From a virus, in IMG/VR virus record IMGVR_UViG_3300017772_000053, positions 1 to 34,094 of that record: 34,094 nucleotides of DNA. The stretch is one strand, 5' to 3'. Shown piece by piece: positions 1,489-17,428 of this stretch. How positions within the stretch are numbered: the stretch's first letter is position 1; every line of letters begins with the position of its first letter. The notes beneath the pieces are model-generated. The model had not been told where the DNA came from and ran no database searches. It saw nothing but the letters and a program-made list of their open reading frames with translations. Both the position numbers and the translations under genes were made by a program.

Positions 1489-2042
1489 ACTTCGTCACCC
1501 CAACAATCCCAACCTTTTACCTTTTGCCTAGCAAATAGTTCAATTCTAGGTAAATCTCCGCAAAGATTAACTATATTAGTTCTAACAATATCAGGTTTTC
1601 TTGAATGTTCTCTACGGCTATCAACAATTAATTGTTTAACATTCTTATAAAATCTTTTAGGTTTGCCTTTTGTAGCTAACAAACACATCTCAGGGTTACT
1701 TCTTGTCCAATAACCTAAACCCATAAAAAAATTATCGTTTGTTTTATTTTTCTTCGCCCATGTAAAGGCTACTGTTTTGTATTTGAATCCCCATTTTTTA
1801 AGTAACTTAAAAGATTTTTCCAAGAAAGGGTCAGTAACCCACATAAACAAACAACAATCCACATCAGCAATATCATTGATATTAAGAACCAATAAATCGC
1901 CAAATTCCATGCAAGAATAATGTTTGGTAGCATTACGGTCTTCACCTTTTTTAGAATAACTTTTAAAATACCAAGCTGGATCTGCATAAATTATTTTATA
2001 CTTCTTCGAATCGTTTAATATCGGTTTTGACTGTTTTTTCAT
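1485..2042 (-). CDS. MT-A70 family adenine-N6 methyltransferase
   Basis: The 185-residue product matches MT-A70-type enzymes, which transfer methyl from AdoMet to adenine N6, in phages usually on DNA. It has YADPAW (DPPW-type catalytic motif, residues 21-24), then a typical FMWVTDPFL stretch, a GLGYWTRSNPEMCLLATKG segment and the C-terminal pair RREHSRKP and PRIELFARQ. I chose the ATG at 2042 because GAGGAG lies 7 bases upstream (2050-2055); a start at 2078 lacks such a site and would lengthen the overlap with the preceding gene. The gene overlaps the zinc-ribbon gene upstream by 47 bases and its stop overlaps the start of the nuclease-like gene. It runs against the surrounding plus-strand genes. 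The motif is DPAW rather than DPPW, a known kind of variation. Confidence 0.93.
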   Translation of the reverse strand: MKKQSKPILNDSKKYKIIYADPAWYFKSYSKKGEDRNATKHYSCMEFGDLLVLNINDIADVDCCLFMWVTDPFLEKSFKLLKKWGFKYKTVAFTWAKKNKTNDNFFMGLGYWTRSNPEMCLLATKGKPKRFYKNVKQLIVDSRREHSRKPDIVRTNIVNLCGDLPRIELFARQKVKGWDCWGDEV

Positions 2043-2211
2043 TTTCAAGCTCCTCTTGTTCTTTTTTTTGTTTTTCATATTTGTTTAATGTAGTTCCTGT
2101 ATTAGAAAATTTTTTCCACCAACATTCAGCGCAATAATCTTTATTATTTTCAACAACATCAGCTTTGTTATCGCAATCACAACAGGTTCTCATATCTCCG
2201 TAAATGTTCAT
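1996..2211 (-). CDS. Small zinc-ribbon-like protein
   Basis: The 71-residue product has two cysteine pairs, CCDCDNKAD and YCAECW (residues 10-31), spaced as in a zinc ribbon or treble clef, followed by a charged, probably helical tail rich in K and E. AAAGGGA precedes the ATG at 2211. It leads the three-gene minus-strand unit and overlaps the methyltransferase start by 47 bases. A role as DNA-binding partner or regulator of that unit is plausible but unproven. Confidence 0.65.
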   Translation of the reverse strand: MNIYGDMRTCCDCDNKADVVENNKDYCAECWWKKFSNTGTTLNKYEKQKKEQEELENEKTVKTDIKRFEEV

Positions 2212-2323
2212 TATTCCCTTTAAAAACGAATCGTTTTATCATTCTTAAAATTACATTAATTATTTTTTTATTTCAAATTATTTGTATTGCTTTTAATCAA
2301 TTTTTGTATAAAGATTCGAATCA
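2212..2323 (+). promoter_or_regulatory. Divergent control region with two CGAATC palindromes
   Basis: This 112-base AT-rich gap separates the minus-strand methyltransferase unit from the plus-strand gene at 2324. It holds AAAACGA-A-TCGTTTT (2223-2237, 7-base arms around one base) and a perfect GATTCGAATC palindrome (2313-2322) ending one base before the ATG at 2324. A TATAAA at 2307-2312 could be a -10 box for the plus strand; transcription would then start close to the ATG, fitting the absence of a Shine-Dalgarno. Both palindromes share CGAATC. Operator function for the phage XRE or LexA-like protein is inference. Confidence 0.5.
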
Positions 2324-2581
2324 ATGCTAATAAAGATTGGGAAACAATGGAAACATAGAAAGAATGGGGGTTGCTTTACTGCTGATCATCTTTCTCCCTC
2401 TCAATTAACTAAAAGTCCAGACCAATGGTTTTATGACTATTGCGTTCTTGATGAAAAGGATAGGCGTAAGCGACCCCCTAATATGAAAATGATATTTGGC
2501 GGAATTATAGGAAAGGCTCTACAAGATATAATTGTCCACAAATTAACTATTAAAGAAGTTATGAATGGAAAAAAAACATGA
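2324..2581 (+). CDS. N-terminal fragment of a PD-(D/E)XK exonuclease
   Basis: The 85-residue product resembles the N-terminus of RecB/Cas4-like PD-(D/E)XK nucleases: HLSPSQLTKSPDQWFYDYC (the conserved 'LS.S.l..f..Cp' opening) followed by IFGGIIGKALQDIIVH, equivalent to the G-x-x-(H/E) helix. It stops at KKT before any D/ExK core. The missing core (D71, E79-x-K81, Q114 and Y118) is found in the separate frame 5205-5837, which lacks this N-terminus. Translation has no clear Shine-Dalgarno. The stop overlaps the next ATG (ATGA), so it is part of a working operon rather than obvious debris. Either half of a two-part enzyme or a relic left by insertion of the genes between. Confidence 0.65.
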   Translation: MLIKIGKQWKHRKNGGCFTADHLSPSQLTKSPDQWFYDYCVLDEKDRRKRPPNMKMIFGGIIGKALQDIIVHKLTIKEVMNGKKT

Positions 2582-2826
2582 TAGAAAAATTAGCAAGTAT
2601 GCAAACACAAATAAGAAACCAAGAAAAAACTATCAAAACACAAGACCAAAAGATAAGAGAAAGAGATGAAGAAATATTAAATTTAAAAAAAGAATTACAA
2701 AATCAAGAAAGAACAAAAGCTAAAAACCAAAGTTATTTAGAATTAAAAGTACAAAAAGAAGTTGACCAAATAAATGAAAACAAAAAAAGACAAAGGAAAG
2801 GGAAACATGACAACCAAACAAAGTAA
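2578..2826 (+). CDS. Coiled-coil protein
   Basis: The 82-residue product is almost entirely predicted-looking coiled coil with heptad-like spacing (LASMQTQI, EEILNLKKELQ) and many K, E, Q and N; no cysteines, no membrane segment. Its ATG overlaps the preceding stop and its 3' end overlaps the start of the annealing protein by 20 bases, so it belongs to the same unit. A role as oligomerisation or accessory factor for the recombination proteins is a guess from position only. Confidence 0.65.
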   Translation: MIEKLASMQTQIRNQEKTIKTQDQKIRERDEEILNLKKELQNQERTKAKNQSYLELKVQKEVDQINENKKRQRKGKHDNQTK

Positions 2827-3397
2827 AGAAGAAGATAAAAGTAAGGGTTCTTTTAAAGATAGAAGAAAAGAATGTATTGAAAAGTTAGATAGCGAAGTTA
2901 AGAAATTAGATTTTAAAGGTAAAAATTATCTTACAGTTGCTAGACGACATAATCATTTATTAAAATTTTTTCCAGAATCTAAAATTGACGAACAAGTTAT
3001 ATTTCAAGACGATACTAAAGTTATTTGTAAAAGTACGCTTTATATTGGCGATACACCTTATAGTGTTGGTCATGCCGAAGAAAGAAGAGACTCTAGTTTT
3101 GTTAATAAAACTTCCGCTTTAGAAAACGCAGCAACTTCAAGTTTAGGAAGATGTTTAGCAAGTTTTGGATTACATGGTACGGAATTTGCTTCTGCCGATG
3201 AATTGGCAAATGCTTTAACACAACAAAAAGGAAACAACCAAGATTCAATTGAAAAAGAAATAGAAAAACAAGGTACGGAAACTAAATTAAATACTTTGTA
3301 TTCTAATTGGATAACTAAAAACGAAAAAATAGAAGAACTATTTAAAACTAAACAAGAAAGCATAAAAACCAACGGAGGAACAAATGCAAAATGGTAA
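2807..3397 (+). CDS. Putative single-strand DNA annealing protein (ERF/Rad52-like)
   Basis: The 196-residue product contains the stretch SALENAATSSLGRCLASFG followed by EFASADELANAL (about residues 105-145), a signature shared by phage single-strand annealing or ERF-like proteins (the 'EnAETSAiGRALa...iASadE' pattern). Such proteins pair complementary single strands during phage recombination and replication. The start at 2807 is preferred to 2774 because AAGGAAAGGG lies just upstream. It overlaps the following SSB-like gene by 14 bases, a natural partner, and lies within the span between the two nuclease halves, the usual third member of such modules. The N-terminal 25 and C-terminal 45 residues are charged and low in complexity. 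Family assignment is by motif memory and could be refined by profile search. Confidence 0.7.
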   Translation: MTTKQSKEEDKSKGSFKDRRKECIEKLDSEVKKLDFKGKNYLTVARRHNHLLKFFPESKIDEQVIFQDDTKVICKSTLYIGDTPYSVGHAEERRDSSFVNKTSALENAATSSLGRCLASFGLHGTEFASADELANALTQQKGNNQDSIEKEIEKQGTETKLNTLYSNWITKNEKIEELFKTKQESIKTNGGTNAKW

Positions 3398-3761
3398 ATC
3401 TAAAGACTGGGTATTATTCCCATACGATGCAAGTAACGAAAAAGCTATTAAGATTGATTTTTCAGGAAATACTTTATTAGCTAATGGCGAAAAAGGAACT
3501 TTATTAGGTTCTAAAGGTACTTCAAAAGACGGCAATACTAAATTTATAAGAATATTCGCCCAAGTAGGAGTATTGTTTAAAGGAGATGACAATAAATTTA
3601 CTGGAAATATAAACGCTCCAGAAATTGGTTCGTCTAAAAAGAACTTAATAGGTTGGCTTAACGATAAATCCGAAAAGCCCAATATTGCAGGTTATCAAAA
3701 TGATCCGCAAGATAAACCACAACAAGAACAACAACCGAAAGATGATGCTTTGTCGTTTTAA
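3384..3761 (+). CDS. Single-stranded DNA-binding protein (SSB-like)
   Basis: The 125-residue product has a beta-rich first 95 residues, a glutamine/proline-rich linker and the C-terminus PKDDALSF. An acidic tip ending in a hydrophobic-Phe pair after a disordered linker is the hallmark of SSB proteins (bacterial form DDDIPF), which use it to recruit partners. GGAGG lies 6 bases before the ATG, so it is strongly translated, and it directly follows the annealing protein. The OB-fold itself is not obvious by eye; the call rests on the tail, size and neighbours. Confidence 0.7.
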   Translation: MQNGKSKDWVLFPYDASNEKAIKIDFSGNTLLANGEKGTLLGSKGTSKDGNTKFIRIFAQVGVLFKGDDNKFTGNINAPEIGSSKKNLIGWLNDKSEKPNIAGYQNDPQDKPQQEQQPKDDALSF

Positions 3762-4028
3762 GTGAAAGTATTCTTTTTAATTTTATATATAGTTAATGGT
3801 TCAAGTTCCGTTAGTTATGTAAAAATTCCTTTTGCTTATTCGTTAATACCGATTACTTGCGAAGAAGTTTTTTACGATAAAGTTAAATTTACTTTTATAG
3901 AAAATGATGGCTATTATGGATTTTATAAAGATAAAATTGTTTATGCTCATACTTGTATTGATGAACATGGAAATTACTATAATGGCTATGAAGAAAAATT
4001 AGATTGGGAATTAGGCTATGGCAAATAA
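3762..4028 (+). CDS. Hypothetical protein with hydrophobic N-terminus
   Basis: The 88-residue product starts at a GTG immediately after the SSB stop (TAAGTG). The first 17 residues (MKVFFLILYIVNGSSSV) look like a signal peptide or membrane anchor; the remainder is rich in Tyr, Asp and Glu with two cysteines (TCEEV and HTCIDE) that could form a disulfide outside the cytoplasm. No ribosome site is visible, so coupling to the SSB gene is assumed. No family recognised. It overlaps the next gene by 11 bases. Confidence 0.5.
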   Translation: MKVFFLILYIVNGSSSVSYVKIPFAYSLIPITCEEVFYDKVKFTFIENDGYYGFYKDKIVYAHTCIDEHGNYYNGYEEKLDWELGYGK

Positions 4029-4329
4029 TGTAAAAGATATAAACCAAATAACTAAAGAATTAGAAAAACTTTTAAAACAAAAAGAGGAACAATACGGAAG
4101 TTTTGATGTTACAAGCTATTCTTTTAAAGGTGTTTTGGAAAGTATTTTATCGGCTTATAATGGTAGAGTTGTAGTTTGTCCGCCTAATATCTTTGGAGTT
4201 TGTATGATCTTTGTAAAGTTATGGCGTTCAATAACGAATCAAAAATATAAAAAAGATACTTATGATGATATTAGCGGATATAACGAATTAAATAGAAACC
4301 TTAAAATGAAAGAAAACAATGGGAAATAA
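4018..4329 (+). CDS. DUF6378/MazG-like all-alpha protein
   Basis: The 103-residue product has EEQYGSFD at about residues 23-30, a middle helix with KLWRSITN, and a C-terminal DTYDDISGYNEL. These correspond to the 'YG.F', 'K..R..n' and 'DsW.DIaGY' blocks of a small alpha-helical family common in phages and related to MazG-like NTP pyrophosphohydrolases. Members may hydrolyse nucleotides or only keep the fold; the usual metal-binding E-x-x-E-D pattern is not evident here, so activity is uncertain. It overlaps its neighbours by 11 bases on each side. Confidence 0.6.
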   Translation: MANNVKDINQITKELEKLLKQKEEQYGSFDVTSYSFKGVLESILSAYNGRVVVCPPNIFGVCMIFVKLWRSITNQKYKKDTYDDISGYNELNRNLKMKENNGK

Positions 4330-4540
4330 AGTACCAATGACTCCAGTTATGTTAAGACTATTGAATTTTATTAAAAAATATGCCAAAAAGAACAAATATT
4401 ATCCAACTTATCAAGAAATGGCTGATGGGTTAAATTATAAAAGTAAAAATTCGGTAACAGTCATTATCAATAAATTGGAAGCAAGAAACGATATAAAAAA
4501 GATAAAAGGTTACAGGAGGAATATAGAACTTAATGTTTAA
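4319..4540 (+). CDS. Stand-alone LexA-type winged-helix DNA-binding protein
   Basis: The whole 73-residue product aligns with the DNA-binding domain of LexA: TPVMLRLLNFIKKY at the start, YYPTYQEMADGLNYKS (the 'GyPPT.rEIa..lG..S' helix-turn-helix), then VTVIINKLEARNDIKKIKG and RRNIEL. The C-terminal autoprotease of LexA is absent, so it cannot be inactivated by RecA-driven self-cleavage. It may regulate phage promoters or compete at host SOS sites; the sequence does not say which. It lies upstream of the XRE-type gene, so two regulators occur within 1 kb. Confidence 0.75.
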   Translation: MGNKVPMTPVMLRLLNFIKKYAKKNKYYPTYQEMADGLNYKSKNSVTVIINKLEARNDIKKIKGYRRNIELNV

Positions 4541-4796
4541 AGTAGAAAAAAATTCACTCCAAGAATTAGTCGTAAATTTTAAAGAATTTTTTGTCGGAGC
4601 TACAATAGAAGAAGCAACAAAGAAAGCTCATGAACAAGAAAAACCTCAAGATGACGCAACTATAACAATAACTGACAGGCGTTTTCTTGGGTCTAATATA
4701 AAAATAGTCAGTGATAAAAAAGATGGCGATACTAGACCCCAAACAAATCAGGGATCTGAAAGTGAAGCAGGGAAAATGGGTACAAAGAATGAATAA
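4533..4796 (+). CDS. Hypothetical acidic early protein
   Basis: The 87-residue product is not recognised. The first 45 residues look helical (NSLQELVVNFKEFF, EEATKKAHEQ); the last 30 are polar and probably disordered. AGGAGGA is present at 4514-4520 but 12 bases from the ATG, which is long. Its last 74 bases overlap the frame at 4723-4893 in another phase, so one of the two 3' portions may not be real. Confidence 0.5.
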   Translation: MFKVEKNSLQELVVNFKEFFVGATIEEATKKAHEQEKPQDDATITITDRRFLGSNIKIVSDKKDGDTRPQTNQGSESEAGKMGTKNE

Positions 4797-4893
4797 ACAC
4801 AAACAAATGATTCGTTCTTACCAAAATAAATTACCTATTATTTCACAAAAGATTTTAGATTTGGAACAAAAACAAGAAAGTATTATTACTTAA
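4723..4893 (+). CDS. Small helical hypothetical protein
   Basis: The 56-residue product from ATG 4723 (a GTG at 4711 would add four residues) is basic and helical (QIRDLKVKQGKWVQR, then QKILDLEQKQESI). A shorter start at ATG 4789 would nearly abolish the overlap with the upstream gene. No family recognised. The 64 bases after it hold TTGTACAA (a palindrome) and lead into the AAAGGAAAC ribosome site of the XRE gene. Confidence 0.4.
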   Translation: MAILDPKQIRDLKVKQGKWVQRMNKHKQMIRSYQNKLPIISQKILDLEQKQESIIT

Positions 4894-4957
4894 TTTACTT
4901 TCTACCGCTAAAGTTGTACAAGGGATAAGGGGATTCTACGCTCAAAAGAAAGGAAAC

Positions 4958-5227
4958 ATGATAATAATAGATAAAGAACAATTAACACTTGACGAAAAAG
5001 ATTTTAATACAAAGTTAGGTAAAGCATTAAAAAATTTAAGAACTATAAGAAAGAAAACTCAAACACAAGTTGCCAGACAAATAGGGGTAACATTCCAGCA
5101 AATACAAAAATACGAAAAAGGTGCAAACGCTATTAGCGAATTTAAAGCTAGAAGAATTTGTACTTATTTAGGTAAAGATTATAATTTATTACAGGAGGAG
5201 TTTAATGTTTGTACCAGTTCAAGATAG
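4958..5227 (+). CDS. XRE/Cro-CI family helix-turn-helix regulator
   Basis: The 89-residue product contains a full HTH_3 domain at about residues 18-72: LGKALKNLRTIRKKTQTQVA, then GVTFQQIQKYEKGAN, then ARRICTYLG. The recognition helix is GVTFQQIQKYE. There is no C-terminal oligomerisation or protease domain, so it is Cro-sized. AGAAAGGAAAC gives a good ribosome site. It probably controls the switch between transcription units; the short palindromes at 2223-2237 and 2313-2322 are candidate operators. Its 3' end overlaps the nuclease half by 23 bases. Confidence 0.87.
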   Translation: MIIIDKEQLTLDEKDFNTKLGKALKNLRTIRKKTQTQVARQIGVTFQQIQKYEKGANAISEFKARRICTYLGKDYNLLQEEFNVCTSSR

Positions 5228-5837
5228 AATAGATAAATTAATTCCAGACCCAATTGAAATAGATACATTTAATTATTTATCTAGTATTGCCGAAAAATTT
5301 ATTATTAATGGACATGAAGCTCACAAAACAATTCCAGGTTTTGATAAATGCAAACCAGAAATAGAAACCTATAAAGTTTTTGATGGTATAGAAATTCCTG
5401 TTCATGGTTACGCAGATTTTAAAGGTGGCGTTATAATAGAAGATAAATGTAAATTTCCAAGAAGAGGTAAGATTAAAAAAGACGGAACTAGATCATGGTC
5501 AACTTCTAAACTACCTGATTCGATAATGCCAGATCACTTAATACAAACGGATTTTTACCATTATGCAACCGAACTACCTATTTATATTTGTTATATAAAT
5601 GAAGAAACCTTTAAAGTCTTTCATGCCGACAATTGCGAACAACTACAACCTGAAAGCATTAAATCAAGGCTATCACAATTTTTGCAAAGATGTAAAGTAA
5701 GACAAAACCTTTTAAGTGTAAGCCAAGATGTAAATATTATAAAAAACTATATCCAACCTGACTTTGAAAATTTTAAATGGAAAAATGAATTAGACCCAGA
5801 TTATTTAATCAAAGCTAGAAAGTTTTGGAGTAGCTAA
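5205..5837 (+). CDS. PD-(D/E)XK exonuclease, catalytic part
   Basis: The 210-residue product has the catalytic core HGYADFKGGVIIEDKC: D71, then E79-D80-K81 (E-x-K), followed by HLIQTDFYHYA, giving the Q114/Y118 motif of RecB/Cas4/lambda-exo-like nucleases. These digest duplex DNA ends to expose single strands for the annealing protein. The opening helices (VPVQDRIDKLI, FNYLSSIAEKFI, NGHEAH) fit the middle of such enzymes, while the usual first 80 residues are missing and occur instead at 2324-2581. AGGAGG lies 7 bases before the ATG, so the frame is independently and strongly translated. Whether the two pieces assemble in trans is unknown. Confidence 0.83.
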   Translation: MFVPVQDRIDKLIPDPIEIDTFNYLSSIAEKFIINGHEAHKTIPGFDKCKPEIETYKVFDGIEIPVHGYADFKGGVIIEDKCKFPRRGKIKKDGTRSWSTSKLPDSIMPDHLIQTDFYHYATELPIYICYINEETFKVFHADNCEQLQPESIKSRLSQFLQRCKVRQNLLSVSQDVNIIKNYIQPDFENFKWKNELDPDYLIKARKFWSS

Positions 5838-5945
5838 AAATCCCATCAGGAAATTATTGTCGCAGCAAATCTAGAGTACCCTAAAAATAGAATCGTCTAT
5901 TCTTTAATAAAACTTTTTTTTTCTAAAAATTTAAAAAACCTAATT

Positions 5946-5954
5946 TGATATAAT
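5946..5954 (+). promoter_or_regulatory. Extended -10 promoter
   Basis: TGATATAAT combines a perfect TATAAT (5949-5954) with an upstream TG at the extended -10 position (5946-5947). No good -35 box is seen, as is usual for this type. It lies in a 145-base non-coding stretch after the nuclease gene, 29 bases before the ATG of the next gene, whose ribosome site AAGGAGG is at 5972-5978. Upstream, AATAGA-ATCG-TCTATT (about 5886-5901) could be a weak hairpin ending the preceding unit. Confidence 0.6.
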
Positions 5955-5982
5955 AGGTTTATAAAAAAAATAAGGAGGGAAA

Positions 5983-6105
5983 ATGTGTAACGAATGGAAA
6001 CACCCAAGCTACTATAAAGAGTTAGCAAAGGTAAGAAAAGAGTTTGAAGAAGAAGAAAACTCTAAAACTAATAAAGAAGAAGAAAAGGGGGAAGAAGATG
6101 AATAA
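5983..6105 (+). CDS. 40-residue acidic mini-protein
   Basis: ATG 5983 has an excellent ribosome site (AAGGAGGG, 4-5 bases upstream) and follows the TATAAT promoter. The peptide begins MCNEWKHPSYYKELAKVRKE and ends in a run of Glu, Lys, Asn and Asp. Strong start signals and coupling to the next gene (8-base overlap) support it as real. No family recognised; the acidic tail might mimic DNA or contact a basic protein, but this is speculation. Confidence 0.65.
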   Translation: MCNEWKHPSYYKELAKVRKEFEEEENSKTNKEEEKGEEDE

Positions 6106-7159: not shown

Positions 7160-7401
7160 TTTTTGCAAGACCAGTATCTTGCGGTTAGTTTATTATTAGC
7201 CGTACTACATTTATGTCTGGCTCTAAAACTCTTTCGTCTTGCTGGATTAGATTTTTTAATAGTCATGTTTGCATCTCCGTATCTAATTAATCTTACGGTG
7301 CTTCCTGACTTTGCAAGAACAGCAAATTTCTTTGTTTTTGTTCTAGCTCTTTTAGGTTTATTATAACCTGAAAAACTTTCGCCTCTATAATTTATTGCCA
7401 T
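7153..7401 (-). CDS. Conserved basic phage protein (DUF6321-like)
   Basis: The 82-residue product opens with YRGESFSGYNKPKRA, has VLAKSG...VRLIRYGD, and ends with PARRKSFRARHKCSTANNKL and YWSCKKW. This arrangement ('fsGyNKPkr...kArRkSFkaRH..n...gk.sA.YWa.k.kW') is widespread in phages and I associate it with DUF6321; function is not known. Highly basic. It overlaps the endolysin gene by 10 bases. Confidence 0.72.
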   Translation of the reverse strand: MAINYRGESFSGYNKPKRARTKTKKFAVLAKSGSTVRLIRYGDANMTIKKSNPARRKSFRARHKCSTANNKLTARYWSCKKW

Positions 7402-7850
7402 TCCTTATAACCTTTTTCATCTTTAATTAATGCCATTCTTCTATCATCATTTTCAAAGGTTGTGTTTTTGGTACTTACATGAATCCAACCTGAATTTATA
7501 TCCGAATCATTATAATATTCTAAAATTAACTGATCATAAGAATATTTTTCTTTGATGTATGTTGCAACTTCTTTATTATCAACTCCAGGTATCTCAAAGT
7601 CCACCGCTTCTCCTTGACAATGCTGACTTGTAGGCTTTGAGCCTATCATGGTAGCTAATTGTTCGCTTCTAAATCCGCTAGTAACTTTAATTGGTAATTT
7701 ATAATGATTTCTTAAAGGTTGAAGTATTTTTTCGCAAAGGTTTTGTAGGTTATTTATTTGTTGTTCGTTAGGTGTATTATCAATATCATTTCGTAAAGCC
7801 GTTTGGCTTTGTGTTAATTCTTTTAATGTAAAATTATCTGTCAGGTTCAT
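7392..7850 (-). CDS. Endolysin: M15-family D,D-/L-Ala-D-Glu-type peptidase
   Basis: The 152-residue product (ATG 7850; a TTG at 7880 is less likely) is a zinc peptidase of the M15 group, cutting peptide cross-links in peptidoglycan to lyse the cell. Visible features: FTLKELTQSQTA at the N-terminus, VTSGFRS (58-62), the zinc motif SQHCQGEAVDFEI giving H77 and D84, an E111 in LILEYY and GWIHVS with H124. There is no signal peptide, so it needs the nearby holin (8473-8853). It overlaps the preceding gene by 17 bases. Confidence 0.92.
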   Translation of the reverse strand: MNLTDNFTLKELTQSQTALRNDIDNTPNEQQINNLQNLCEKILQPLRNHYKLPIKVTSGFRSEQLATMIGSKPTSQHCQGEAVDFEIPGVDNKEVATYIKEKYSYDQLILEYYNDSDINSGWIHVSTKNTTFENDDRRMALIKDEKGYKEWQ

Positions 7851-9764: not shown

Positions 9765-10083
9765 AGTCAACCATTAATAATTTTATACCTAATTTTTTTT
9801 GTTTTTTTGTAGGTGCTCTATATATTTTATATGAGCCTTTAGGTTTATTTTTTAAACATTTACCTTTTTTGTTTTTACGAAAAGTAATTGTCTTAATATC
9901 AATTAGTTCTACATTACCATTTTTGTCAACGATAACAATATCAAACGGACAACTTGGATCACAGCTTTTGGCGACATAATAGCCTTTTTTAGTAAGTTTA
10001 GCTATTGTTTCGTATTCGCCAACTGTACCTTTAATAGAAGTTTTTTTTTGTCGTTCAGAGATAAGTTTTTTATCTATTTGCAA
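9754..10083 (-). CDS. PD-(D/E)XK nuclease, Holliday-junction-resolvase-like
   Basis: The 109-residue product has GTVGEYETIAKLTKKGYYV (E23), SCPFDIVIVD (D48) and VELIDIKTITF (D62, K64): the E...D...D-x-K arrangement of archaeal-type resolvases and related small endonucleases. It would cut branched DNA before packaging. The start is a TTG at 10083 with no obvious ribosome site; no ATG lies before the conserved GTVGE, so a non-ATG start is needed. It is placed among late genes, consistent with clearing junctions for the terminase. Confidence 0.75.
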   Translation of the reverse strand: MQIDKKLISERQKKTSIKGTVGEYETIAKLTKKGYYVAKSCDPSCPFDIVIVDKNGNVELIDIKTITFRKNKKGKCLKNKPKGSYKIYRAPTKKQKKLGIKLLMVDYED

Positions 10084-10088
10084 AACAA

Positions 10089-10265
10089 TTATTTAATAAA
10101 GTAATTATAACCACTTGTTATTGCTGTAGCTAATATAAGTAATAACCAAACAGCACCTTTCCCTTTATTAATATCGGCTCTTAATGAATAAGTTTCTTGT
10201 TTTAGTTCCCTAACTTCTTTAACTAAAAAATCTATTTTAACTTCTGTTGCCGATTTTTTTGCCAT
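10089..10265 (-). CDS. 58-residue single-pass membrane protein
   Basis: ATG 10265 begins one base after the stop of the large virion gene. The peptide has a charged helix (VKIDFLVKEVRELKQETY) and a C-terminal hydrophobic span (AVWLLLILATAITSGY). Such short coiled-coil plus membrane proteins sit near phage lysis or internal virion genes; function unknown. Confidence 0.65.
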   Translation of the reverse strand: MAKKSATEVKIDFLVKEVRELKQETYSLRADINKGKGAVWLLLILATAITSGYNYFIK

Positions 10266-10266
10266 G

Positions 10267-12282
10267 TTATTCTTCTTTCTTACCTTGAAGCATTTGTAAG
10301 TATTCGTAAATAAATTGTCTTGTTTCGGAATCAGCGTTTGCCATAATAGTACCTAATTTTCCTAAATGTTGAATAACGCCATCAGCACCTTTGTTTCCTG
10401 TTATTTTAATTCCTTGTGCTAACCATTTAATAAAATTTGGGTTAGTCATTAATCCAGCTGTTACTCTTGCACTTCCTATAACTAAAGGAACGGATAATAT
10501 AAAAGCAGGATTACCTGTAAATGCAGTTGCTCCTCCTCCAAATATTAAACCTTGTCCTACTAATCTATCTGCAGTTCCACTAGGATTAGCAAAAGTTTTA
10601 CCACTTGCTCTAATATTATCTGCAATATTAACTACTTGTTGTAAATTTTTTTGAAATTCTTTTCCAAAAGGTGCACTTTTAAAAAGTGTTTTTTTAGCTT
10701 GATCTGATAATTTACTAAAATTAGTTAAAAAAGTTTCGGAAGAAAATCTTCCAGCTGTCATAACAGTATCGCCACCAAAAGTTTGTGCTGGTTGCATACG
10801 ACCCATTCTTTCAAGAATATTAGATACTAAAATTTTATATGAATCGTTTGATGCTTCTTTATTTACTTTTGCTAAAGAATTTCTTACTGCATTTAATCTA
10901 GTCGCACCTTCTTTTCCTGAACTTAATAAACTCATTACAAGTTTATCAGGGTCAGTAATATTTACTATTGGTTGTAAATAATCTTCAATTCTTTGTAATC
11001 CTTTTTGGTAAAATTTATTAGCCGTATCTAATTGTTTTACAGCAGTATCACTTCCATATTTTTTAGCAGCAATTTTTAAATCTTCGCTTAATGCTTTATA
11101 AATTAATTTTAATTGTCCTTTTTCTACATCAGGAACTAAATCAAAAGAAGCCATTTTTTTACCTATTTTTTGTTTTATACTTTTAACTGCAGCATAAGGT
11201 AATTGTCCATTGACCATATCTTTTTGCAAATTACCAAACAAATCTTTTAAGAATGGACTTTTTAATTGATCACCTACATTTTTAGCACCTGGAATATCAT
11301 CAACTAATGAACGAATAGTATTTAATGTGCTTCCTTTACCTTTAGATAAATCAATTAAAGCGTCTTTTTTTATAAATTTATCTATTTTGCCAAATAAAGT
11401 GTTAGCTTTTGCATTAAACATTCCTACAAAACTTTTTGGATTATTAAGTCCATCTAAAGAATTAATTAATGCTCTACCAACTATTGATTCGTCAGGAACA
11501 ACTGGTTTTTTAATTAAATTTTTTGCCGTAGATAAAACTTTGTCGCCTAATTGTTTTTGTGCATTTCCAGCAACTGCTGCTATTTTTCCAGAACTTCCTG
11601 GAAAATTACCTAACAATAGTTCAACTGTTTGCAATCCTCTTTTTTGTGTAACTTGTCCTAAAGAAGGTGTTACTCCAGCGTCTATATAATCTTCTAATCT
11701 TTTTGCTGTTTCTACTCCTTTTTTTCCAAAACCTGTTATTGAACCTTTTAATGGTTTTAATATTAAAGGAACTACAGCTTGTCCAACAGAACCAAAAGCA
11801 AAATCGGTTCCTCTTTGTGCTGCCCATTCTTTATTAGTTCTTAATATTTCTGCACCGTACATTTGTCCAACTCTTTCAAATAATTCCGCACCTGCAGCCA
11901 TTCCAACTCCAGAACCTACAACGGCACCAGCTGCAGTTCCAACAACAGGTACGGCACTTCCAGCAACAGCACCTTTTGCAGTTCCTATAATAGAACCAAC
12001 CATTTCGGTAGCTTCTTTTCCTAAATCTATTGCGTCTGCAAGATTAGTTTTATTTTTATTATCTAATTGGTATCTATCGCCTTTTTCATCAGTAACGATA
12101 AAATTATTACCTTGTAAGGGTTCAACTTTAGTGTAAAATTTTTCAAGAGTTGCTACTTTAGAAGCCATGTTTGGTGCAGCTTCTACAAGAAATCTTATTT
12201 TATTAGGAACTTCGTTTAATTCTAGTAATTCTTTTTTTTGATCGCTAGGAAGTTGATTTACAAATTCTAGGGTTGTAGCCAT
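10267..12282 (-). CDS. Large virion protein, likely DNA-injection/internal virion protein
   Basis: The 671-residue product has a glycine/alanine-zipper region at about 95-135 (GTAKGAVAGSAVPVVGTAAG and similar) that looks like a membrane-inserting segment, followed by a long alpha-helical, lysine-rich body and a second hydrophobic stretch near the C-terminus (FGGGATAFTGNPAFILSVPL). Large alpha-helical proteins with glycine zippers at this place, after the tail genes, are typical ejection or pilot proteins of podoviruses. I do not recognise a specific family. No lysozyme or transglycosylase motif is visible. A shadow frame on the plus strand (11327-11689) comes from its low-complexity codons. 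Confidence 0.65.
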   Translation of the reverse strand: MATTLEFVNQLPSDQKKELLELNEVPNKIRFLVEAAPNMASKVATLEKFYTKVEPLQGNNFIVTDEKGDRYQLDNKNKTNLADAIDLGKEATEMVGSIIGTAKGAVAGSAVPVVGTAAGAVVGSGVGMAAGAELFERVGQMYGAEILRTNKEWAAQRGTDFAFGSVGQAVVPLILKPLKGSITGFGKKGVETAKRLEDYIDAGVTPSLGQVTQKRGLQTVELLLGNFPGSSGKIAAVAGNAQKQLGDKVLSTAKNLIKKPVVPDESIVGRALINSLDGLNNPKSFVGMFNAKANTLFGKIDKFIKKDALIDLSKGKGSTLNTIRSLVDDIPGAKNVGDQLKSPFLKDLFGNLQKDMVNGQLPYAAVKSIKQKIGKKMASFDLVPDVEKGQLKLIYKALSEDLKIAAKKYGSDTAVKQLDTANKFYQKGLQRIEDYLQPIVNITDPDKLVMSLLSSGKEGATRLNAVRNSLAKVNKEASNDSYKILVSNILERMGRMQPAQTFGGDTVMTAGRFSSETFLTNFSKLSDQAKKTLFKSAPFGKEFQKNLQQVVNIADNIRASGKTFANPSGTADRLVGQGLIFGGGATAFTGNPAFILSVPLVIGSARVTAGLMTNPNFIKWLAQGIKITGNKGADGVIQHLGKLGTIMANADSETRQFIYEYLQMLQGKKEE

Positions 12283-12284
12283 AA

Positions 12285-13385
12285 TTAACCTTTAATTTTA
12301 AATAATGAGCCATTCGGTAATCTAAAGAAATAAAACCCATCTTGGTAATCAGCTAATTTTGTACCTTTTGGCAATCTATTTATAACATCTTTCGTTTGAC
12401 CTGGAGGTCCGTCAGGAACTTTATTATTTACAAATAATGGTCTTAAATCATTATCTACAAAAATATTTTCAATGTTTAATCCTCTATTTTCTGCAATTTT
12501 TTCATAACCAGTTCTTATATTATCAATTGAACCCTCAGAAGCATTATGAAATTCTATTGCAGCTTTTTTAAAGTTTTCTCTTTCTCTATCAGTTAATCTT
12601 TCACCTTTTCTTAACTTTTGCCATTTTTGAAATGCTTTTTCAAAACTAACTAAAGCAGAACCACCTGTTCCCTCAGCTACTTCAAATTCTGATTCCCTAA
12701 CTACTGAATTAGGGTCTAGTGTTTTCATAAAAGCAAAAATTGCTGCTACATCTCCAGCTCCTGTGTTTTGCTCTAAAGAAGATAACATTTTTTTTAATTG
12801 TGTTGTAGATTCATTAAAATTTTCTATTTGTTTGTCATCATTGTAATTTTTAAAAAATTCATTTTCTTGGTCTTGAATATTCTTAAATGCTTCTTTTATA
12901 TCTTTTTTCTTTTGTAGTTTATTCTTATTAGATAATTCTATTGATTTTAGTCTTTCGTTTAAAATACCTGTAACGGCAACTTTTGGAAATGCTTCTGCAA
13001 TTTCTTTATATGGACTGTCATCAGGTAAATTATCAAAAAAATTTCTTTGTTTATCAGCTAATTCTCTTGCCTTTTTATTTTCAGCCATTTTATTTTTCAT
13101 TTCTTCCATTTGCATAAATTGACTTTGTAATTGTCCTGTTTGTTGTAAAGCAGGTGCAAAAGAACTAAATGGGTCTTTACCTTGTATTCCTTGTCCAATC
13201 ATATTTGCCCCAAGAATTAAATTAGGATTAATATTATTAAAGCTACCAAAGAAACCTTTATTGTTATTACTTAACAATCCATTATTAGGTGCATTATTTC
13301 TAACAATACCATCTGGGGCTACGGAATTACTTCCCATAGTTTTATTCATTAAATTTTGTCTAAAAAGTCGTTCAAAAAAGTTCAT
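12285..13385 (-). CDS. Virion/injection protein with FMKxLDPxSVVRExEF motif
   Basis: The 366-residue product begins with an Asn-rich, low-complexity head, then a coiled coil (about 100-200). It contains AIFAFMKTLDPNSVVRESEF (about 216-235) followed by GERLTDRERENF. That motif, 'iFnFMKmLDPnSVVREsEfa.A...G..Lt...R', is a well-conserved phage structural block found in internal virion or tail-associated proteins, sometimes with a lysozyme domain (none seen here). It precedes the large injection protein, two bases apart. Confidence 0.7.
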   Translation of the reverse strand: MNFFERLFRQNLMNKTMGSNSVAPDGIVRNNAPNNGLLSNNNKGFFGSFNNINPNLILGANMIGQGIQGKDPFSSFAPALQQTGQLQSQFMQMEEMKNKMAENKKARELADKQRNFFDNLPDDSPYKEIAEAFPKVAVTGILNERLKSIELSNKNKLQKKKDIKEAFKNIQDQENEFFKNYNDDKQIENFNESTTQLKKMLSSLEQNTGAGDVAAIFAFMKTLDPNSVVRESEFEVAEGTGGSALVSFEKAFQKWQKLRKGERLTDRERENFKKAAIEFHNASEGSIDNIRTGYEKIAENRGLNIENIFVDNDLRPLFVNNKVPDGPPGQTKDVINRLPKGTKLADYQDGFYFFRLPNGSLFKIKG

Positions 13386-13386
13386 G

Positions 13387-14733
13387 TTATATCAATCCTC
13401 TTGTTTTCAAATAGTCTATATTATAAGGGTTATTGGCTAAATTAGTAGCCGTAAAACCGCCATAGGGGGCTTGAGAATAGCCAAATTGACTAGATAGGGG
13501 GGTTAGTGTCATATTAAGATTAGCTTTAGCCTGATCGTATGCTTTTTGCACATCAGATACATTTTGGGATTGCATATTGTTAAAATAGTTATTTACCATA
13601 GAATTTTGCGGAGTTGTATTTCCTATAAGATTTGCAGCTAAAGGAGTTAATTGATTTATTGCATCTCTTTCATCTCCTCCTACATTACCTGTTAAGTAAT
13701 TACCATCATATTTAAAATCTCCAGAACCATCTGGGTTATATTTTATTGTTTTACCTGTATAACCTAAAACGCCTAACGCTTTATTATTTTTATAAGTATC
13801 GGTAACTCCTCTTATCATAGTTCCTACAATACCACCAGATTTTACAACTGTACTTAAAGGATTTTCTGACATATCTTTTGAAAAAGTTGTAGCGTTTTCG
13901 TCTATTGAAGAAGTATATTTACTATATTTTGTTTGATCTTTAATGTTGTTAAAAGCTAAATCCAAATTTTCCATAACAAAATCTGTTTCTATATCCGATA
14001 ATTTACTACCTTTTAAATCGGAATTAGATAAGGCTTGTAATTGATTTAAAGTATTTATTTTATCTTTATCGCTAACATCAGGGGAATCTAAAAATGCACC
14101 TAAATTAGCTGTTTGATATTGTTCCGTATTAATAATTCCTGGAGTTTGTTCAATATCAACTAAACCTGTATCTTTGTTATAAGTAGCGTTTGTAATTTCT
14201 CCTAATCCGTAACCTGCGTCTATTCCCACATCTCCAGAATAAGCGTCTGTTTCGTAATCAAAATTATTAGAAACTACTCCAGGTGGTAGAACAGGATCAG
14301 GATATTCAAAAGGTTTATTGTCATTATCATTTCCAAAATTTGTATTTACTGGAGTTTCGTTAAAATCATTATAACTTTGTGTATTTTCCCAACCACCATC
14401 ACCATAGTTATCATTATTATTATTATTGTTATTATCTCCACCGCCAAATCCATCATTAGCATCAGCTCCACCACCGCCAAATCCATCACTAGCATCTCCC
14501 CAACCATCAAAACTTAATATTCCAGAAGCACCTACATTTGGTTGATTATTCATTAATGAACCATGTAAATTAGCTTCTAGTAATAAACCTTTTTCGGCTT
14601 CGGTTATGTATGATAATTCAGTAGGAGGACTGTTTTCAGAAGATTGCCAAAATTTAGGGGCTGTAACTTCTGGAGTTTTACCTAAATAATTTCTTACGCC
14701 ACCTTGCATTTCAAAGTTTTTATTTAGTAACAT
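13387..14733 (-). CDS. Virion structural protein with Gly/Asn-rich insert
   Basis: The 448-residue product starts with a conserved block TELSYITEAEKGLLLEANLH preceded by APKFWQS, seen in many marine phage structural proteins ('TELAYIT..EK.LLl.aNLHGSL'). Residues about 78-120 are low complexity (DGFGGGGADANDGFGGGDN then seven Asn), encoded by a 33-base imperfect repeat and a triplet repeat. The rest looks mixed alpha/beta. Exact structural role unknown. Confidence 0.65.
   Translation of the reverse strand: MLLNKNFEMQGGVRNYLGKTPEVTAPKFWQSSENSPPTELSYITEAEKGLLLEANLHGSLMNNQPNVGASGILSFDGWGDASDGFGGGGADANDGFGGGDNNNNNNNDNYGDGGWENTQSYNDFNETPVNTNFGNDNDNKPFEYPDPVLPPGVVSNNFDYETDAYSGDVGIDAGYGLGEITNATYNKDTGLVDIEQTPGIINTEQYQTANLGAFLDSPDVSDKDKINTLNQLQALSNSDLKGSKLSDIETDFVMENLDLAFNNIKDQTKYSKYTSSIDENATTFSKDMSENPLSTVVKSGGIVGTMIRGVTDTYKNNKALGVLGYTGKTIKYNPDGSGDFKYDGNYLTGNVGGDERDAINQLTPLAANLIGNTTPQNSMVNNYFNNMQSQNVSDVQKAYDQAKANLNMTLTPLSSQFGYSQAPYGGFTATNLANNPYNIDYLKTRGLI
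14438..14496. repeat. 33-base imperfect tandem repeat in virion gene
   Basis: A 26-base unit (starts CCACCGCCAAATCC, ends TAGCATC) occurs at 14438-14463 and 14471-14496 with a single change, giving two DGFGGG-type peptides. Next to it lies an ATT triplet run (about 14411-14436) coding for asparagines. Both are prone to length change. Confidence 0.8.
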
Positions 14734-14743
14734 TATTATTTCC

Positions 14744-14854
14744 TTACAAGATTATTGAAACAACAAATAATATACCAAGAATAAAAATATATTTAGATGT
14801 GTTGTTATCTATATCTGTTTTTAGATTATAAATTATTTTATTTATTTTATTCAT
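14744..14854 (-). CDS. 36-residue membrane peptide
   Basis: ATG 14854 overlaps the preceding stop (TAATG) and the frame ends at TAA 14744, 11 bases before the next start. The peptide has a basic front (MNKINKIIYNLKTDIDN) and a clear hydrophobic helix (YIFILGILFVVSIIL). Overlap and composition support a real gene; function unknown. Confidence 0.55.
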   Translation of the reverse strand: MNKINKIIYNLKTDIDNNTSKYIFILGILFVVSIIL

Positions 14855-15561
14855 TATAGTAGTCCTCCTAAAAAGCCTAATCCACCACCTATTAATGCAC
14901 CTGGTGCACCAAACATTGAACCCATCATAGCTCCACCAGCTGCGGTTGTTAATGGATTGGCTCTAGTATTTACCGATTGTTGGGTTACAGGAAATCCTGC
15001 TGCAATTGGCGAAACTAAACCTGCGTATTGTTGTAAAGATTGATAAGGTGCTAAATTTTGTTGTCTAGTTAAATTTTCTAATTGTGCACCTGTTTGTGTT
15101 AAAGTTGGAGCATTTGCTGCGATTGAAAGTTGTCTATTTCTTTCTTGTCCATATTCGCCAAACGCTAAAGGTAGAGCTGCTTGTGCAACTTGTGAAGTAA
15201 TTTGTTGTTGCGACATTGGACTACCTGGAGTTCTTCCTGCTGCACTAAATTGAGAATTTACATTTGTTGCAATATCGGAAGCTGTTTTTTGTAATAAAGG
15301 GGAAAGAAAAGGATTTAAATATTGTCCACCAAGCGTTGCTGCAAGTTGTTGATTGGCTGCGTTAGCCATTGTTTCTTGTTGTGCTAAACCTGTTAAAGTT
15401 TGTTGTGTCGGTGCAACATAGCCTGACGCTTTTACGCCTTGATTGTATAAATTACCTGATTCACTAATTATTTGATTTAAAGCTGGTTCAGCTGGTGCGT
15501 ATGGTTGAACACCTGTATTTTGAACTGAATTACCGCCTGAACTTCCACCACCAAAACTCAT
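14854..15561 (-). CDS. Virion protein, Gln/Ala/Gly-rich
   Basis: The 235-residue product is glycine-rich at both ends and Gln/Ala-rich in the middle; it has FSAAGRTPGSPMSQQQI, then EYGQERNRQL, and ends with GGAMMGSMFGAPGALIGGGL, a glycine-zipper/hydrophobic tail. The layout (PYAPAEPAL..., 'n..fs.aGR.gS......a...l..a..y..e..rql', glycine tail) matches structural or injection-type proteins located by the GNAT gene in marine phages. Role: virion, possibly delivery complex; low certainty about detail. Confidence 0.6.
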   Translation of the reverse strand: MSFGGGSSGGNSVQNTGVQPYAPAEPALNQIISESGNLYNQGVKASGYVAPTQQTLTGLAQQETMANAANQQLAATLGGQYLNPFLSPLLQKTASDIATNVNSQFSAAGRTPGSPMSQQQITSQVAQAALPLAFGEYGQERNRQLSIAANAPTLTQTGAQLENLTRQQNLAPYQSLQQYAGLVSPIAAGFPVTQQSVNTRANPLTTAAGGAMMGSMFGAPGALIGGGLGFLGGLL

Positions 15562-16001
15562 ATTTTATCCTCTTGTTTAATTTGTTTTTCTAAAACAACA
15601 TGGGTTCTTTTATACCCAAAATTATTTAAAACTTTTTGCCAACCAGGTCTTGCAATCAGCTCTAGCATTTTGCAATCTTCTTGTTTAGCAAATTCTTCAA
15701 TATCTTTAACAAGATACTGCCATTTTTGTCTTTGCCTACCTGTCATAATATAAATATGACAAACTTTCCCTAGTTTTCTTTGTATTATTTCGGTTACTAC
15801 AACGCCAAAATATTTGTCTATTGTTTTGTCTTTGTCTTTATCCCAAAGTACCCAAACTTGAAATTTGTCTTGTTTGGCAACTTCTAAAACAAAATCCGAA
15901 TCAGTTAGTTGGTTAGAATAAGCTAAAGCGTCTTTAATATCTTTTTCAATTAAACTCCAAACTTTGTCTAATTGTTCGCTAGGTATTCTAACTAATTTCA
16001 T
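15558..16001 (-). CDS. GNAT-family acetyltransferase
   Basis: The 147-residue product has a GNAT-like order: N-terminal helix, strands (FQVWVLWDK, YFGVVVTEI), then CHIYIMTGRQRQKW, LVKDIEEFAKQEDCKMLELIA and RPGWQKVLNNFGYKRTHVVL. In phages this protein is typically found among virion genes; a target is not known, and acetylation of host or virion protein is inference. It overlaps the next gene by four bases. The ATG lacks a clear Shine-Dalgarno and lies just after a hairpin (16017-16040) and a TATAGT stretch. Confidence 0.78.
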   Translation of the reverse strand: MKLVRIPSEQLDKVWSLIEKDIKDALAYSNQLTDSDFVLEVAKQDKFQVWVLWDKDKDKTIDKYFGVVVTEIIQRKLGKVCHIYIMTGRQRQKWQYLVKDIEEFAKQEDCKMLELIARPGWQKVLNNFGYKRTHVVLEKQIKQEDKI

Positions 16002-16016
16002 AAATACTATATAAAA

Positions 16017-16040
16017 TGCTTAAATACAATAATTTAAGCA
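16017..16040 (-). terminator. Terminator-like hairpin
   Basis: TGCTTAAAT (16017-16025), loop of six, ATTTAAGCA (16032-16040): nine perfect pairs. Read on the minus strand it is followed by TTTTATATAG, and it includes the stop of the 16034-16384 gene. It may terminate or stabilise the fibre/adhesin transcript ahead of the acetyltransferase. Confidence 0.5.
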
Positions 16041-16384
16041 CTTTTCTCATCAAAAATTTCTAATAATGAAGTCGTAACCATTAATCTATTTGCATTTCCA
16101 GCGGTTACTTGCAGAACTTCGTTTTCCGTCATTACTAAAGGTTTTGATAATAATTCTAAAGTTTCATAAGCCGAAACTGTTTTGTTCGTATAAATATTAA
16201 ATGGATTTCCACCAGAAGCTGGATTTCCGTCATATAAAATTACAGTTATTGTAGTAGCATTATTGCTTTTTTCATTAGCGGAGAGTGATTTTAAAATAGC
16301 CGTTCTACCACTAGGAACTGTATATAATGTTGTAGCTGAATTAGTTGTTAAATTTAATTTTTGGTTCTTGTAAGAATTAGCCAT
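16034..16384 (-). CDS. Small beta-sandwich virion protein
   Basis: The 116-residue product is all-beta in appearance: TTLYTVPSGRTAILKSLSAN, then TITVILYDGN and ANRLMVTTSLLEIF. The 'lytVPsGktAilksi.v.N...' opening is shared by many phage proteins that decorate fibres or capsids. It is located among the adhesin genes, two bases from the DUF7483-like gene. No ribosome site problem. Role: accessory fibre or surface protein, tentative. Confidence 0.6.
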   Translation of the reverse strand: MANSYKNQKLNLTTNSATTLYTVPSGRTAILKSLSANEKSNNATTITVILYDGNPASGGNPFNIYTNKTVSAYETLELLSKPLVMTENEVLQVTAGNANRLMVTTSLLEIFDEKSA

Positions 16385-16386
16385 GA

Positions 16387-17415
16387 TTATCTAGCTGTAC
16401 ATGGTACATTGTTTGAACCTACTAATGGAGCTTCTGCAAATGCCATGTAGATAAAATTTTGACCATTTCCTTGACCATCTCCATCTCTATATTTAAAACC
16501 ATTAGACAATAAATCCATTCTTGAAGTTGTACTTTCAGCACTATTACTTTCTGCAAATAATCTGTGGTTATTATAATTAAAACCATCTCTTTTATTATCT
16601 TGCATATGCCATGATTGTCCAGAGCCATCATATCTTTTTGTTATTACAAAAGCAGGTTTAAATCCAAGATAGACGAACACACCATCTGCATTTCCATTAC
16701 CAGTATAAGAACCAAATTTGCTATAACCAGTTTTCTCTGCGAAGCAGTAAGCTATACAATTATCATTAGTGTCAAATTCGTCTGATTTTACTGTAAAAAC
16801 TTGATTAGTTGGAGATGTACTATTCATGTAAGTGCTAGATGCTTCGCCACTACTAGAATTTAATACTAATCTTTTACTAATAGCTACTTTATGATGGTGA
16901 ACATCCCAGTTATAAGAAGAATCTAAACTACGCATTATTATAACTTGAGGAACAACACCTAATCCATGTCCAAAAGTATTTGTTGTGTAACTTTGATTAT
17001 TTACAAATTTTACAATACTAAATCCTGCTGTTGTATTTACTGAAACAGTTGAACTTTGACTTCCATCAGTATTTGATGAACCTGCACCACCTGCTTTCCA
17101 GTTCCAGGATACCATTCCTTGACCATTACCATTTGAAGAACCATTAGTACCTAAACTAAATCCATCACTATCAAAAGATTTAATTCCCTCAGTAGTATCT
17201 GTTGCTGCACCAGAAGTATTAGAACGCAGTAAAGCATCAGTAGAAAATCCTCTGAGAACATCAAATAAATTATGGTCATCTGTATTTGCTCTATTTTTAA
17301 TCCAAGTAAAATCTGGTTGATGACCAACACCTTGCACAGATAAATTTGCACCTGTTCCTGTCCAAAGTTTAGTATTAAAATAATCTGTAGATTTATTAAT
17401 TGTTGTATAAGCCAT
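16387..17415 (-). CDS. DUF7483-like adhesin / fibre-tip protein
   Basis: The 342-residue product matches the repeated-strand phage domain I associate with DUF7483: YFNTKLWTGTGANLSVQGVG then HQPDFTWIKNR (about 11-41), DVLRGFSTDALLRSNTSG, FDSDGFSLG and VSWNWKAGG; later repeats of the same blocks (GNADGVFVYLGFKPAFVITK). These domains are found at the C-terminal side of LamG/SPRY phage proteins and probably bind glycans or other cell surfaces. Here the domain is a separate gene directly after the LamG/SPRY gene, 13 bases apart. No cysteine pattern or signal. Confidence 0.75.
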   Translation of the reverse strand: MAYTTINKSTDYFNTKLWTGTGANLSVQGVGHQPDFTWIKNRANTDDHNLFDVLRGFSTDALLRSNTSGAATDTTEGIKSFDSDGFSLGTNGSSNGNGQGMVSWNWKAGGAGSSNTDGSQSSTVSVNTTAGFSIVKFVNNQSYTTNTFGHGLGVVPQVIIMRSLDSSYNWDVHHHKVAISKRLVLNSSSGEASSTYMNSTSPTNQVFTVKSDEFDTNDNCIAYCFAEKTGYSKFGSYTGNGNADGVFVYLGFKPAFVITKRYDGSGQSWHMQDNKRDGFNYNNHRLFAESNSAESTTSRMDLLSNGFKYRDGDGQGNGQNFIYMAFAEAPLVGSNNVPCTAR

Positions 17416-17428
17416 TTATATTTTCTCC

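Follow-up and report, generated by a model that had tools for sequence, protein, structure and literature searches.

In phage Lambda, the exonuclease Exo and the annealing protein Red-beta act as a pair and are encoded by genes near each other (PMC7496540). A number of phage enzymes are encoded in two pieces, namely NrdA of Aeh1, the DNA polymerase 43A/43B of phage 25 and the T4 topoisomerase gene 60/39 (PMC2988022), as well as DNA polymerase III in jumbo phages (PMC7824862). For NrdA and 43A/43B, reassembly of the two chains into an active enzyme was shown, and the splits of NrdA and T4 topoisomerase have been ascribed to insertion of a homing endonuclease (PMC2988022). The locus described here is part of the IMG/VR virus record IMGVR_UViG_3300017772_000053, which comprises 34,094 bases and is referred to as the window. 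Two of its open reading frames (ORFs), located on the plus strand at 2324–2581 (N-half) and 5205–5837 (C-half), very probably encode two subunits of a single RecB/Cas4-like PD-(D/E)XK exonuclease, the gene of which was split once in an ancestor of the HTVC106P-type pelagiphages. The locus resembles the known split phage enzymes in that one enzyme would be derived from two genes. It differs from NrdA and T4 topoisomerase in that no homing element was seen, five conserved genes and small ORFs lie between the halves, and the enzyme is of the recombination exonuclease type. In contrast to the single-chain Exo of Lambda, two chains are encoded here, with the annealing-protein slot located between their genes. 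Split phage enzymes are thus already known, whereas no account of a recombination exonuclease encoded in two pieces was found in the literature searched, including the paper naming HTVC106P; subscription journals were thinly covered, so this absence is weak evidence.

Both ORFs have an ATG start and an intact stop, in agreement with the sequence-only reading that preceded this analysis. The N-half encodes 85 amino acids (aa) comprising N-terminal helices and the pattern H-x-S-P-S-Q...W...Y...R...G...Q, with H22, S24, Q27, W35, Y39, R47, G59 and Q67 being conserved, and is devoid of the catalytic D/E-x-K. The C-half encodes 210 aa and contains the catalytic core with the motifs P-x-H-G-Y-x-D (D71, 5415–5417), E79-D-K81 (5439–5441 and 5445–5447) and Q114-x3-Y118 (5544–5546 and 5556–5558), without the N-terminal helices. 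The 3' end of the N-half overlaps the next ORF, which begins at 2578. The start of the C-half falls within the 3' end of a gene for an XRE/HTH_3 regulator (4958–5227, plus strand), with an overlap of 23 nucleotides, and its position is kept in relatives. It is preceded by AGGAGG (5193–5198, plus strand), which reads as a Shine-Dalgarno-like sequence inside the regulator gene.

A tblastn search with the N-half identified HTVC106P gp12 (4157–4411, 61.5% identity), and a search with the C-half identified HTVC106P gp22 (7170–7808, 59.4% identity). These are likewise separate genes, both annotated as hypothetical protein, and HTVC106P shares the split and the gene order of the window (59–61% identical); its record does not note a relation between gp12 and gp22. 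HTVC106P was also the nearest phage in a DNA-level comparison of the window part 10000–17900. Further matches of the C-half were genes annotated as 'putative nuclease' in other pelagiphages and, in C72C1, a larger gene. In C72C1, HTVC034P and HTVC028P, the gene encodes one chain of 270–360 aa (CDS0045, gp15 and gp07, respectively, annotated as 'putative nuclease' or hypothetical). Their position, immediately ahead of the annealing-protein slot, is shared with the split clade, in which, however, the protein is made as two chains and the C-half is encoded about 2.5 kb downstream.

The relationship between the two forms was established by family-to-family alignment against a single-chain profile of 336 columns. 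The N-half aligns with columns 23–77 (97.5%, E 5.8e-12) and the C-half with columns 118–333 (99.9%, E 9.7e-37). The two stretches do not overlap and follow each other end to end, N before C, while the linker region between them in the single chains aligns with neither half. The scores are strong and the stretches do not overlap, and chance homology is therefore ruled out. The N-half corresponds to roughly the first 70 residues of a 270-aa single-chain relative, and relatives with homology over both halves are found among both the HTVC028P and C72C1 types, which provides the intact, end-to-end counterpart that the sequence-only reading had suggested looking for. By these alignments, the two ORFs are complementary parts of one RecB/Cas4-like PD-(D/E)XK nuclease, and the earlier description of the first as carrying just the opening motif and a helix, and the second just the catalytic part, proved accurate. 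The sequence-only reading had also asked whether relatives of the second frame share its start and are full length. Within the split clade they do share this start, but the outgroup proteins are longer single chains that include the N-half at their front end.

The split is not confined to the window. When viral contigs were searched, the N-half gave 80 loci and the C-half 74; in a separate search, an N-half profile detected 265 related stretches, 80 of which were kept. Removal of duplicates left 87 distinct N/C pairs. The arrangement is seen again in HTVC106P, an isolate, as well as in dozens of distinct contigs from IMG/VR. An assembly or sequencing artefact, for which no supporting point was found, has a negligible probability, as the same order is present in the isolate and in many independent metagenomes. 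Where the contig leaves room, the C-half is present in 63 of 63 N-half loci and the N-half in 75 of 75 split-type C-half loci; the eight listed exceptions to co-occurrence are the single-chain relatives themselves. Nearly all loci of sufficient length show the order N-half, (small ORF), annealing-protein slot, SSB-like gene (single-strand DNA-binding), o103, LexA-like gene, XRE gene and C-half. In the first locus set, every listed start is ATG and the N-half stop is separated from the C-half start by 2513–3043 bases. The N-half measures 82–97 aa in 117 of 118 loci, and the C-half 210–218 aa with the exception of two short ones. Every relative open to checking has both halves, intact and co-inherited, and two proteins therefore probably make up the enzyme, unlike in its single-chain relatives. 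Among GTDB species genomes, a single match was obtained, a 4.6-kb contig (L239) in a proteobacterial metagenome-assembled genome. It carries the same split gene block and probably represents phage DNA placed in a bacterial bin. A candidate second break, in an HTVC028P-type gene represented by two stretches on one contig (L170/L171), was rejected, since just a 10-base gap separates the stretches and the frame is open on both sides.

Median pairwise ratios of nonsynonymous to synonymous substitutions (dN/dS) of 0.20 for the N-half and 0.24 for the C-half, for pairs with dS between 0.15 and 1.5, indicate that both are under purifying selection. The N-half retains eight of nine positions that are invariant in the single-chain set, including the start Met (Fisher p 4e-4). 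The C-half retains 19 of 36 such positions, among them all five motif residues D, E, K, Q and Y. Correlated evolution was assessed from pairwise distances at 28 loci, dereplicated at 95% identity, for 15 gene pairs. The N-half and C-half showed the highest correlation of all pairs (raw 0.82, partial 0.63), a value reached in none of 999 permutations, and in 191 of 200 subsamples no other pair had a higher partial correlation. This holds even though other genes are located between the two halves. For the N-half and its near neighbour, the annealing-slot gene, the partial correlation was 0.05. With an upstream control gene included (23 loci), the N–C value was 0.65 and that between the upstream gene and the N-half −0.01; with a downstream control gene (11 loci, a small sample), the values were 0.73 for N–C and 0.08 for the N-half and the downstream gene. 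A further control rests on five loci and is uninformative. Linkage along the phage backbone was considered as the cause of the N–C correlation and found unsupported in view of the upstream and downstream control genes, the latter with few loci. As a separate observation, the distance pattern of the annealing-slot gene (2807–3397) is at odds with those of its neighbours. The gene seems to have followed a separate history, as would fit recombinational exchange, whereas the N-half and C-half have remained together.

These data bear on the view that the N-half is an independent small protein, e.g., a DNA-binding or regulatory factor, with the C-half acting alone or with another partner. This is unlikely, although the N-half has its own start, a promoter-like TTGAC-type box is located about 35–40 bases upstream of it in many relatives, and the histidine of helix A typical of RecB-type nucleases is lost. 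Against it, the N-half retains the residues that are invariant in single-chain relatives. Moreover, the N-half never occurs without the C-half on a contig long enough to hold both, and among the genes tested, the C-half is the one whose distances those of the N-half follow most closely. The conservation of the split, the homology of the halves to complementary stretches that do not overlap, purifying selection, and the joint retention and evolution of the two genes favour the genuine two-chain nuclease put forward in the sequence-only reading.

Phylogenetic analysis placed all split sequences on one side of one branch with a support of 100/97. In HTVC028P-type loci, an intact nuclease gene is followed by the same annealing-slot gene (hhalign 100%, E 3e-78), o103 and XRE genes. 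It had been suggested that the nuclease gene was opened by insertion of the annealing-protein, SSB, LexA-like and XRE genes, which would leave the halves as remnants. The position of this cassette between the halves of the window fits such an event, which is nonetheless highly improbable. In the HTVC028P type, the annealing-slot, o103 and XRE genes are already found downstream of the intact gene, and thus it was not the cassette that moved into the nuclease gene but the 3' part of that gene that changed place, and this part is now located behind the XRE gene. Purifying selection on both halves and the preservation of start, stop and length over deep divergence are likewise at variance with remnants. 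The split in an HTVC106P-type ancestor would have arisen when the 3' part was duplicated or relocated to behind the XRE gene, with complementary loss. Duplication and subsequent complementary loss would be the simplest route, but a DNA repeat search found no trace of a duplicated nuclease segment.

Since Pfam searches gave no match for either half and a PDB sequence search with a combined profile gave none either, the family assignment relies on the motifs, on weak PHROGs matches of the exonuclease/Cas4 type and on fold comparison. Fold similarity was established on a single-chain relative and not on the two-chain form. The AlphaFold model of a 270-aa relative (L182) has a predicted local distance difference test score (pLDDT) of 93.7 and a predicted template modelling score (pTM) of 0.88. 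It contains the helices 61–73 and 83–108 with an unstructured stretch, 74–82, between them. When aligned with this protein, the N-half ends around helix 61–73 and the C-half enters just ahead of helix 83–108, so that in the predicted fold the break is located in the inter-helix loop 74–82. A Foldseek comparison with solved structures matched the single-chain model to the Cas4-family protein ACE1 (9iab; E 1.7e-5, template modelling (TM) score 0.52) and AdnA (9np6; 6.7e-5), and further to Cas4 SSO0001 (4ic1), RecE (3h4r) and MGME1 (5zyu). Among viral models, it matched proteins named PD-(D/E)XK nuclease and exodeoxyribonuclease 8. With these RecB/Cas4/RecE-type nucleases, the enzyme shares the predicted fold of its single-chain relative, D...E-x-K, Q-x3-Y and N-terminal helices ahead of the core, the difference being that here helices and core are separate genes. 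The residues D71, E79 and K81 are invariant in 38 C-halves and align with D133, E142 and K144 of the single-chain relatives; Q114 and Y118, also invariant in the C-halves, have their counterparts in Q177 and Y181.

The metal-binding histidine of helix A is a defining feature of RecB-type nucleases. At this position (G-x3-H), all N-halves have a glycine (G63), HTVC028P-type proteins have G or N, and only the C72C1 type has the histidine (H48). Helix A of the N-half (2495–2527) shows an invariant Gly in place of the His and an invariant Gln-Asp one turn later, a substitution possibly reflecting a change in metal binding. Cas4 proper is defined by a four-cysteine Fe-S cluster with three of the cysteines near the C-terminus, and no such triad is present close to the C-terminus in the C-half sequence. 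With motifs and fold present, and helix-A histidine and cysteine cluster absent, the enzyme belongs to the RecB/Cas4-like neighbourhood and not to Cas4 proper.

Several points weigh against an active two-chain exonuclease paired with an annealing protein. As the split clade has glycine in place of the helix-A histidine, its activity as a nuclease is uncertain; this is tempered by the single-chain HTVC028P-type relatives, which also lack the histidine. The likeness to solved structures is moderate, with a TM score of about 0.5. The C-half modelled alone reached a pLDDT of 75.5 and a pTM of 0.69, with a weak match to SSO0001, but the contrast in confidence with the single chain is only suggestive because the alignments used for modelling differ. 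Finally, the slot downstream of the N-half is occupied in the window by phrog_11717 (2807–3397, plus strand), a family without assigned function that is homologous to HTVC028P gp09. Its protein has no detectable similarity to the Sak and ERF proteins of the relatives and is thus a putative single-strand annealing protein by position only, possibly representing an undescribed family of annealing proteins.

In the relatives, the gene directly downstream of the nuclease encodes a recognised annealing protein, namely Sak (PF06378) in C72C1 and ERF (PF04404) in HTVC034P. This location speaks for the nuclease acting as the exonuclease of a two-component recombinase. The N chain of about 85 residues, with the helices preceding the core, and the C chain of about 210 residues, with the D...E-x-K...Q-x3-Y site, would associate non-covalently to yield the active nuclease. 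The most likely product of this association is the exonuclease partner of the phage annealing protein, which would resect phage DNA ends for the protein encoded between the halves. Covalent joining, through trans-splicing, a split intein or another mechanism, is extremely unlikely; the sole point in its favour is the formation of a single domain by two chains whose genes are far apart. Only a short tail, EVMxGKK plus a few residues, closes the N-half, and the C-half opens with MF(V/T/I)P, so that neither end carries an intein-sized extension, although no search with intein models was made.

More speculatively, as the halves are located at the start and the end of the gene block, the non-covalently assembled enzyme might form only once the whole block has been transcribed. 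The opening gene of the block would supply the N subunit, and the catalytic subunit would be made from the closing one, the start of which overlaps the regulator gene ahead of it. Such splitting could allow the phage to control the exonuclease, with assembly waiting for the annealing protein and SSB and resection of phage DNA ends held back until the annealing machinery is in place; this idea is tentative and doubtful at present. No terminator-like site was found within window positions 2000–6100, including the region between the halves, and promoter-like sites in this range are rarer than chance. In combination with the TTGAC-type box upstream of the N-half in many relatives, the lack of a terminator-like site between the halves makes a single transcript running from N-half to C-half plausible.

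A stable natural split of a RecB/Cas4-type nuclease would show where this fold tolerates a break. It would also offer a ready-made two-chain exonuclease, the activity of which might be switched by adding the second chain, and account for two 'hypothetical proteins' recurrent in many marine phage contigs. The hosts of pelagiphages are the ocean's commonest bacteria. The reason for enzyme splitting, be it timing, dosage or drift, is testable in this system, as HTVC106P can be studied on Pelagibacter HTCC7211 in culture.

The remaining genes between the halves are all encoded on the plus strand. A small coiled-coil-like ORF of 82 aa (2578–2826) overlaps the N-half stop and is present in only part of the relatives. 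The start of the annealing-slot gene is probably 2807 and not the first ATG of its ORF (2774). The SSB-like gene (3384–3761, 125 aa) has no family match of its own and is named by position, the same slot in C72C1 being annotated as single strand DNA binding protein. The o103 ORF (4018–4329) is DUF6378-like with an E value of 3e-5, below the curated cut-off, and also follows the intact nuclease gene in phages of the HTVC028P type. A LexA-type DNA-binding domain of 73 aa (PF01726, 4319–4540) stands alone, without the autocleavage part. The 10-base palindrome GATTCGAATC is located at 2312–2321, directly ahead of the N-half start, and AAACGAATCGTTTTA at about 2222–2238 in the divergent region; both are possible operators for the LexA-like or XRE regulator. 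A minus-strand ORF of the divergent gene block (1485–2078) contains a DPAW motif and likely encodes an MT-A70-type adenine methyltransferase.

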